Shown: piece by piece, positions 7,500-33,322 of the stretch
Position numbering within the stretch: the stretch's first letter is position 1
Layout of the letters: each line of letters starts with the position of its first letter
DNA from: Desulfotignum sp.
GTDB lineage: Bacteria; Desulfobacterota; Desulfobacteria; Desulfobacterales; Desulfobacteraceae
Assembly (NCBI GenBank): GCA_011390615.1
Contig: JAABSB010000018.1
Span: 1 to 33,805, forward strand
Reading direction: 5' to 3'
Length of the DNA stretch: 33,805 nucleotides
Made by a program: the position numbers and the translations under genes
Notes under the pieces: model-generated
Database searches by the model: none
The model's input: the letters and a program-made list of their open reading frames with translations, nothing else
Told to the model about the DNA's origin: nothing

Positions 7500-7691
7500 T
7501 CACTCTTTTTTGTCAGACAATGAAGACGGCTGATTTTCCGGTGAAACAGATTTTTGTTCTGTGATGGTATTTTTGCCTGTCACCTGACAGGCATCCCGCA
7601 TTCAGGTGGAAATCCCCATTTTGGGCAGCACATAAATCTGCAGCAGCAGATAAATTCCAACAAATCCTATGATCAAAAGCATTTCTTTCAT
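7500..7691 (-). CDS. putative small membrane selenoprotein (UGA at codon 30), 63 residues
   Basis: ATG at 7691-7689 follows a strong AAGGAG site about six bases upstream. Codons 1-29 encode one hydrophobic helix (about residues 4-22: MLLIIGFVGIYLLLQIYVL) ending in PKMGIST. A TGA at 7604-7602 comes next, then 33 more open codons (M-R-D-A-C-Q-V... ending DKKE) to a TGA at 7502-7500. The UGA residue would form a U30-x4-C35 pair right after the membrane segment. A perfect 7-bp hairpin with loop AGGU starts 9 nt after the UGA. Read conventionally it is a 29-aa membrane peptide (7602-7691), and an ATG directly after the TGA could start a separate 33-aa peptide. The function is not recognised; a membrane-tethered redox thiol/selenol is an inference. 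A promoter (7721-7749) and a terminator (7477-7498) bracket it. Confidence 0.62.
7575..7592 (-). promoter_or_regulatory. SECIS-like hairpin downstream of in-frame UGA
   Basis: On the minus strand GCCTGTC pairs with GACAGGC around loop AGGT (18 nt). The loop's first G lies about 18 nt after the UGA at 7602-7604. Bacterial SECIS elements are hairpins in the coding region just after UGA with a G in the first loop bases, and E. coli fdhF has GGUC at nearly this distance. No bulged U in the stem is obvious, so SelB recognition is inferred. Confidence 0.55.
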
Positions 7692-7824: not shown

Positions 7825-7880
7825 AACCACGAAGCGCACGAAGGACACGAAGAAAGGGCATCTTCGTGCGCTTCGTGGTT
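7825..7880. repeat. palindromic repeat built from nine-base CACGAAG units
   Basis: The 19-bp arms at 7825-7843 and 7862-7880 are perfect reverse complements (AACCACGAAG...CTTCGTGGTT). The left side holds three units of CACGAAGNN at nine-base spacing; the right side holds two. The same element type recurs at 33262-33322. It lies in non-coding DNA. Confidence 0.8.
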
Positions 7881-8039: not shown

Positions 8040-8109
8040 ATTAGAATAAAAAATCACCGGATTTTCACATACAGATTTCCATTAATGATTTACCAACAAG
8101 GAGGCAGTG

Positions 8110-8301
8110 ATGCCGATTTTTGAATTTCAGTGTGATTCCTGCAAACATGAATTTGAAAAACTTGTGTTCGCAGGAGACACACCTGATATCACCTGTCCGG
8201 AATGCAAAAGCCGGGAGGTCACAAAAAAAATGAGTGCTGTAAGCTTTATGGGCAAAAGTATGGGCACCTGCGCTGCAGATGCCCCAAAAGGTTTTTCATG
8301 A
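8110..8301 (+). CDS. FmdB-family zinc ribbon protein
   Basis: A 63-residue protein of the FmdB/CxxC_CxxC_SSSS family. It opens MPIFEFQCDSCKHEFE and has a second CPEC pair at about residues 29-32, giving a four-cysteine zinc ribbon; the tail is flexible and Ser/Gly-rich. Role unclear in the family (linked by name to formamidase regulation). AAGGAGG at 8098-8104 supports ATG 8110 rather than the GTG at 8107. It lies upstream of the universal stress protein in the same direction, about 170 bases apart. Confidence 0.88.
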   Translation: MPIFEFQCDSCKHEFEKLVFAGDTPDITCPECKSREVTKKMSAVSFMGKSMGTCAADAPKGFS

Positions 8302-32978: not shown

Positions 32979-33260
32979 TGGAACCTCCTGTTGGTCAGGA
33001 CCATCGCATGGAACCATATCCTGTTCAGCTGCTTGATACCCCGCTACCATCAGGGGGCTATGCCTTTATAGGTGACACTGCATCTACATGCGACTAAACT
33101 GTCCTGTTGGTAATCACAGGTATCTTACATCCTCAATTGGTTTCTGTAAACCAGTAACCGTCACTGTTCAGGTCAAATTCATTCATAAGCAGTTATAATA
33201 TAAATTCAGATAGTTATGACCAATATCGGATGGCCTTACATTGATTTATTTTTTTTTAAA
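32979..33260 (-). other. 5' leader/intergenic region upstream of the Hpt gene
   Basis: About 280 bases without a supported gene. The minus-strand leader (about 33188 to 32979) can form CCCC-tgatggtagc-GGGG near 33040-33060 on that strand. No named riboswitch fold was recognised. The promoter-like sites at 33195-33223 lie in it. Confidence 0.5.
33195..33223 (-). promoter_or_regulatory. possible promoter of the Hpt operon
   Basis: Minus-strand TTGGTC (33223-33218), a 17-base spacer and TATTAT (33200-33195). The -10 is good (5 of 6), the -35 poor (3 of 6). The leader would be about 210 bases. Confidence 0.38.
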
Positions 33261-33261
33261 A

Positions 33262-33322
33262 CCACGAAGATCACGAAAAGCACGAAGGAAAGGCATCTTC
33301 GTGCTTTTCGTGATCTTCGTGG
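33262..33322. repeat. long hairpin of nine-base CACGAAG units, second copy
   Basis: The arms 33262-33287 and 33297-33322 are perfect 26-bp reverse complements around a nine-base loop (GAAAGGCAT). Three units (CACGAAGAT, CACGAAAAG, CACGAAGGA) make the left arm. The loop and inner arm match the copy at 7825-7880, but the stem carries an extra unit and compensating changes. Confidence 0.85.

Follow-up and report, generated by a model that had tools for sequence, protein, structure and literature searches.

Small single-pass membrane proteins that carry selenocysteine (Sec) in a short charged tail are represented in eukaryotes by SELENOS and SELENOK. Several of the searches for prokaryotic selenoproteins lean on homologs with Cys at the place of Sec, so that a short family lacking a Cys form is hard to see; such a gene would be listed as a fragment of 29 residues or left unannotated. 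Cys homologs were reported for the new families in the accessible parts of PMC12013277 and PMC2398784, and the latter also reports Sec in two marine sequences of a family named putative regulatory protein FmdB. The bacterial SECIS rules laid down in the available portion of PMC13188914 call for a stem of 4 to 16 bp, a loop of 3 to 9 nt with a G in its first two bases, a distance of 16 to 37 nt from the UGA and a dG of -7.5 or lower. Here we analyse a stretch of 33,805 nucleotides from Desulfotignum sp. (contig JAABSB010000018.1 of assembly GCA_011390615.1; hereafter, the window), in which one gene, read over its whole length, very probably codes for a 63-residue single-pass membrane selenoprotein. 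The insertion of Sec at its internal UGA, codon 30, appears from the comparison of homologs to be almost certain.

The gene is found on the reverse strand (Table 1), and its frame consists of 29 codons, the Sec UGA and then 33 codons (M1...T29-UGA-M31...E63). The translation of positions 7691-7503 reads MKEMLLIIGFVGIYLLLQIYVLPKMGISTUMRDACQVTGKNTITEQKSVSPENQPSSLSDKKE. The ATG with its Shine-Dalgarno sequence, the 29 codons, the TGA and the 33 open codons up to a second TGA are all present as the original prediction had described them. Its observation of a recoded frame followed by a hairpin is confirmed, and its interpretation of the gene as a selenoprotein is supported by the sequence comparisons given below. 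The flanking signals that it had listed fared differently. What it called a good upstream promoter exists as a site with 9 of 12 matches, but one such site was found where shuffled sequences gave a mean of 2.0. A terminator-like hairpin does follow the second stop, again at chance level (one found against a mean of 0.8 in the shuffles).

Table 1. Coordinates of the features at the selenoprotein locus, numbered from the first letter of the window
Feature	Position	Strand	Basis
Putative selenoprotein gene, 63 residues	7503..7691	-	translation; UGA aligned in 138 homologous loci
Start codon ATG	7691-7689	-	sequence
In-frame UGA, read as Sec (residue 30)	7604-7602	-	UGA in 138/138 homologous loci, Cys in 0
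Final stop TGA	7502-7500	-	sequence
Shine-Dalgarno-like AAGGAG	7703-7698	-	six bases 5' of ATG; seen in sequence
Predicted helix, codons 2-24, assumed to span the membrane	7620..7688	-	AlphaFold2; hydrophobicity read from sequence
Cys35 codon, possible Sec30 partner (U-x4-C), also within the stem	7587..7589	-	Cys at +5, 117/138
bSECIS-type hairpin, 8 bp, loop AGGU	7593-7574	-	same sequence in L002; covariation
Weak terminator-like hairpin 3' of second stop, 5 bp	7497-7483	-	at chance level
FmdB-type zinc ribbon gene (Zn_ribbon_8), divergent neighbour	8110..8301	+	PF09723 2.9e-15 for 8107-8301

What seems decisive for the recoding is the comparative evidence on the UGA, rather than the single hairpin. 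A scan of genome contigs with the protein of the window retrieved 29 loci, all of them from Desulfobacterales or Deltaproteobacteria according to their titles, the closest relative being a Desulfotignum MAG with 92% identity. The UGA is codon 30 in 28 of these near loci and codon 29 in the other one, where the start lies one residue later, and CQVT continues after the UGA in 28 of the 29. A profile made from the 29 near loci and the window, with Cys written for U (A1), was run on 395 genomes of the phylum of the window and matched in 163 of them, while a broader profile of 60 rows (A4) detected relatives in 169 of the 395 sampled genomes, about two fifths; among the A4 matches listed, every row has at least one TGA inside the match. 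We then used as homologous loci the 29 from the single-protein scan and 109 of the better A1 matches, the latter drawn from a part of the 163 genomes, which gives 138 loci, with the window as an extra one. Their gene cores all differ, and yet UGA is found at the aligned position in 138/138 and Cys in none, with coding conservation on both sides. After the UGA, the frame remains open for 13 to 46 codons and contains the conserved Cys in most cases, so that the pattern that the original prediction had named as contrary to its reading, i.e., homologs that end at codon 29 with nothing conserved beyond, is absent from these loci.

The same prediction had anticipated homologs with Cys in place of U at position 30, and in this respect it did not hold for the phylum sample of 395 genomes, in which no such homolog appeared among the translated loci or the A4 matches listed. 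Since the search profiles held Cys at the key position, Cys forms would have been favoured in this sample, and none was seen. With no Cys homolog found, the usual Cys/Sec pairing test cannot be made here; Cys homologs are customary support for a bacterial selenoprotein and not a requirement. No relative was found in plasmids, nor in the viral contigs of IMG/VR with a pattern requiring a Cys codon.

To extend the reading toward the weaker matches, 23 genomes, mostly of the weak tail, were re-run with the profile and 27 loci were read, with one listed row (G017:C11) left out. Seven of these loci were repeats, 14 were further members and six were weak. The UGA is in the same register in 13 of the further members and one residue off in the remaining one (L176). 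The weak loci are L177, L178 and L181 (one place), L179, L180, and L182; U is in place in L178/L181 and L179, shifted in L177, and elsewhere in L180 and L182. Matches that carry the mark "none" and finish near profile position 28 break off at a UGA or directly before one, except for L180 and L182. These two are second-copy small membrane genes with a displaced UGA (VPRLKPPTSFSCPTUATK), possibly a further selenoprotein paralog. Another variant was found in four genomes of a single family (f84; loci L163, L164, L167, and L170), with two in-frame UGAs each, an early one in LP[KR]LG[IL]PSUGAP and a second one in PTUDGxxC near the C terminus, an arrangement resembling a duplication of the Sec motif.

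The family has a simple plan, with one N-terminal hydrophobic helix followed by the motif LP[KR]xG[IV]xTU and, usually, a Cys five residues on. Over the 138 loci, the P at -7, the G at -4 and the U itself are invariant, position -6 is always Lys or Arg, Gln or Asn is found at -12 in 136, T at -1 in 131, and Trp at -16 in 125. Cys is found at +5 in 117 of the 138. Counting the window (n = 139), the first Cys after U is at +5 in 118 loci, at +6 in 12 and at +10 or +12 in 4, and 5 loci have no Cys within the 20 residues after U. Of the U30-x4-C35 redox pair that had been proposed from the window, the spacing is thus well conserved, and the redox role is what we infer from it. Codon structure also extends beyond the UGA. 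Pairwise differences per site among the 29 close loci, taken over the nine codons past the UGA, were 0.13, 0.05, and 0.26 at the first, second, and third codon position, as is typical of a coding sequence, which indicates that codon periodicity persists past the UGA.

Eight bases separate the UGA from the hairpin, which starts at the ninth base with the sequence UGCCUGUC-AGGU-GACAGGCA and has its loop beginning 16 nt after the UGA. Its place and its loop are those originally predicted, but the stem has 8 bp, not 7. An identical stem-loop in locus L002 scores -13.0 kcal/mol, and with the energy taken from that identical sequence the hairpin of the window complies with the published bSECIS rules. 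A stretch of 45 nt of the window folds at -13.9 (z -2.1), and 7 of 200 shuffles fold at least as stably. Scoring simple unbulged stems under the published rules, 78 of the 139 loci (window included) reached -7.5 kcal/mol, the other 61 missing this limit with the unbulged stem; -5 kcal/mol was reached in 106, and 8 loci had no stem within the rules. In synonymous-codon controls that keep each protein and the approximate GC content (n = 2780), these energies were reached by 3.0% and 9.0%, respectively.

The stem was also examined for covariation. AGG is found in the loop register in 61 loci besides the window and is missing from 77. The alignment contained 50 of these 61 and the window (51 sequences, 42 of them distinct), after 11 loci whose stem register seemed shifted or different had been dropped by eye (L062, L064, L068, L071, L077, L080, L081, L087, L113, L127, and L135). 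Compared with shuffles, which ignore relatedness and hence provide support rather than a probability, the seven-pair stem had more paired cells (89.8% versus 82.9), more cells changed on both sides (21 versus 5.0) and a higher covariation score (0.260 versus 0.134), with 0 of 500 shuffles as high for any of the three; slid partners scored at most 0.103. In the same alignment, the number of pairs showing changes in both partners (2 versus 2.4) and that of further pair types (5 versus 7.0) were not above the shuffles. Two of the stem pairs covary by way of silent codon positions, namely, the wobble bases of Ala34 and Cys35. In the 42 distinct rows, the third base of Ala34 and the first base of codon 39 form CG in 25, UA in 8, and GC in 5 and no pair in 4; between the third base of Cys35 and the first base of codon 38, the pair is UA in 34 and CG in 8. 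The Ala34-wobble/codon-39 pair is standard in 51 when all 62 sequences are kept. RNA structure appears, at positions 38-39, to shape the choice of amino acid.

The genome of the window contains selA (589 bits, above the cut-off), selB (341 bits, above the curated cut-off), and selD (above the cut-off), the combination expected in a genome with a bacterial selenoprotein. The original prediction had named all four sel genes, and a genome lacking selB or selC as contrary to its reading; selB is present, and the fourth gene, the tRNA-Sec gene selC, did not rise above the gathering score in this MAG, which is 83% complete. Of the 31 genomes searched for tRNA-Sec, 22 had it above that score, 8 of 12 congeners among them. 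The selD gene has an in-frame UGA of its own in KGAGU, which we take to be its catalytic place. At locus L041, this selD with its in-frame UGA (KGAGUAAK) is a second selenoprotein gene of the genome. In the phylum, selA is above the cut-off in 355 of the 395 genomes, and genomes with the family (A1 matches) make up 156 of these 355 versus 7 of the remaining 40 (Fisher p 0.0011, with the lists compared by hand), a weak test because so many of the genomes have selA. Six of the seven family genomes without selA above the cut-off have selB above it.

An ordinary stop at the UGA would turn what lies downstream into a regulatory hairpin or into a separate small ORF, re-initiated at the ATG that follows. 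An ATG directly after the UGA is indeed present in the window and in 93 of the 138 loci, and the hairpin is conserved. However, the other 45 loci have different codons at this place (CTG, CTC, GCT, GGC, ACT, and others), including the non-start codons GCT, GGC, ACT, and CTC; in terms of residues, U is followed by Met (93 loci), Leu (22), Val (8), Ala (6) or Ile (4), the remaining five loci having Gly, Phe or Thr. Because the residue after U varies beyond Met, re-initiation at this ATG is no general explanation: it fits the window and its 29 near relatives, all of which have the ATG, and was discarded because of the distant homologs. In addition, the close loci show codon periodicity in a coding frame that runs through the UGA, Cys is kept at +5 in most of the set, and a UGA at the aligned place in every one of the 138 argues against an ordinary stop, which leaves this explanation very improbable. 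Even less credit can be given to a near-cognate tRNA reading the UGA as Trp or Cys with no Sec involved. Plain readthrough would likewise conserve the downstream frame, but the hairpin of bSECIS type covaries and has the right spacing, the Sec machinery is encoded in the genome, and near-cognate readthrough would not bar a Cys or Trp codon from all 138 loci.

The neighbourhood of the gene showed no universal partner gene or operon. The most recurrent neighbour is the FmdB-type cluster, with a member within 450 bp in 30 of the 139 loci, distributed over about 11 families. Thioredoxin is found within 500 bp in 15 of the 139. No FmdB cluster members were found between 450 and 2500 bp, a range that many of the stretches, reaching only 1.5-2 kb, cover in part. 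Among the same-strand ORFs scanned (111 upstream and 106 downstream, with 13 of the 29 near loci considered and the upstream row L021 dropped), Zn_ribbon_8 was the commonest upstream Pfam family (13 of 111) and was found 5 times downstream. The selenoprotein, FmdB and thioredoxin genes are all together at L112, L114, L117, and L149. In 12 of the 139 loci, the selenoprotein gene overlaps at its end with a gene of the ECF sigma cluster, and a zf-HC2 cluster gene is found beyond in 14, both clusters being named from one scanned representative each. Near loci of the single-protein scan account for at least 9 of these 12 sigma linkages, which may therefore represent one event. MobB is nearby in 11 loci, and the gene downstream in the window is an Oxidored_FMN/Pyr_redox_2 flavoenzyme.

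Other elements were seen around these genes. Eight loci have a cluster of small multi-Cys ORFs (median of 70 aa and median distance of 31 bp), whose scanned representative gave no Pfam match. In the window, two palindromic repeats with CACGAAG units, similar to a REP- or MITE-type element, are located at about 33260-33322 and at about 7825-7880, the latter separating the selenoprotein gene from the divergent FmdB gene. For these repeats, the sequence CACGAAGCGCACGAAG gives 5 matches with up to 2 mismatches, where 0 are expected.

AlphaFold2, run on A1, predicted a helix at residues 2-24 (pLDDT 88-89 for residues 1-20) and an unstructured tail of low confidence (mean pLDDT 63.7). Over the 138 loci, the mean net charge is +2.6 for the C side and -0.17 for the first four residues, and the C side is more positive than the N end in 111. 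By the positive-inside rule, a positive tail faces the cytoplasm, and this distribution suggests a tail-in topology. The computational results on which a mechanism can be built are the recoded and conserved UGA, the SECIS-type hairpin with its covariation, the Sec machinery and the conserved U-x4-C; from there on, we infer the topology and the selenenylsulfide as well as the electron donor and the substrate. SelB and Sec-tRNA would be guided by the hairpin just past UGA30 and would place Sec at the membrane-proximal helix end, after which translation would proceed into a short, mostly positively charged tail facing the cytoplasm. Sec30 and Cys35 would probably form a selenenylsulfide/selenol pair reducible by thioredoxin, and the protein would act as a membrane-tethered redox relay or a peroxidase-like site.

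As for the role, the likeliest would be a thioredoxin-reduced selenol/thiol site, given that U and C would be close to each other at the membrane surface and that thioredoxin is a recurrent neighbour; the specific assignment as a thioredoxin-fed membrane redox relay is a tentative one. Its main rival is a selenoprotein that would serve in sensing, regulation or metal/chalcogen binding and not as a thiol-redox relay; one such protein would be a membrane sensor of redox state or selenium, acting together with the FmdB zinc ribbons or the ECF sigma/zf-HC2 pairs. The recurrence of FmdB close to the gene and at the top of the upstream Pfam families points in this direction, as do the overlapping sigma genes and the zf-HC2 genes beyond them. 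However, the sigma linkages may be a single event, the function of FmdB is itself unknown, and thioredoxin neighbours together with U-x4-C fit redox chemistry equally well or better; we consider a role of this kind somewhat less likely than the relay.

The protein of the window and 15 diverse members gave no significant match in NCBIfam (best E of 0.16) or in Pfam (best E of 0.012, to DUF5337 in one member). The window protein had no match in PHROGs, and a sequence profile search of PDB returned one match at E 0.92, to a ribosomal protein. Judged by names and motifs, none of the 119 families or subfamilies in the rows of Table 1 of PMC13188914 has this plan, and no such family is found in the accessible parts of PMC12013277, PMC1914089, PMC1242214, PMC2398784, PMC9312934, and PMC1794560. 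Text searches of the literature brought up none either, and an earlier description elsewhere is possible. We think it likely that these genes form an uncatalogued family of very small membrane proteins, which some two fifths of the sampled genomes contain and which is apparently Sec-only within the one phylum and the 395 genomes that this statement covers, with a redox site at the membrane surface in which Cys would not be an accepted substitute and with one lineage carrying a second Sec motif in the tail. That Cys is not accepted would explain why methods based on Cys/Sec pairs have missed the family. If this is confirmed, the family would be a selenoprotein that is widespread among sulfate reducers and related organisms, and it would offer a natural case for studying why Cys cannot replace Sec.

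The family has in common with the bacterial selenoproteins of Table 1 of PMC13188914 the in-frame UGA, the downstream stem-loop with a G in the loop and a Sec that, as is often the case there, is paired with Cys. It differs from the families printed in that table, as far as their names and motifs indicate, in the single N-terminal transmembrane helix combined with TU-x4-C, and from the new families in the accessible parts of PMC12013277 and PMC2398784 in that no Cys homologs were found here. FmdB, a family with a redox motif, recurs beside the selenoprotein gene as a neighbour and not as a homolog, and the FmdB gene of the window encodes Cys and is free of in-frame UGA codons. The likeness to SELENOS and SELENOK is one of plan: in the family described here, Sec would not lie close to the C terminus but where the helix ends at the membrane, and the coding region itself contains the SECIS-type hairpin.
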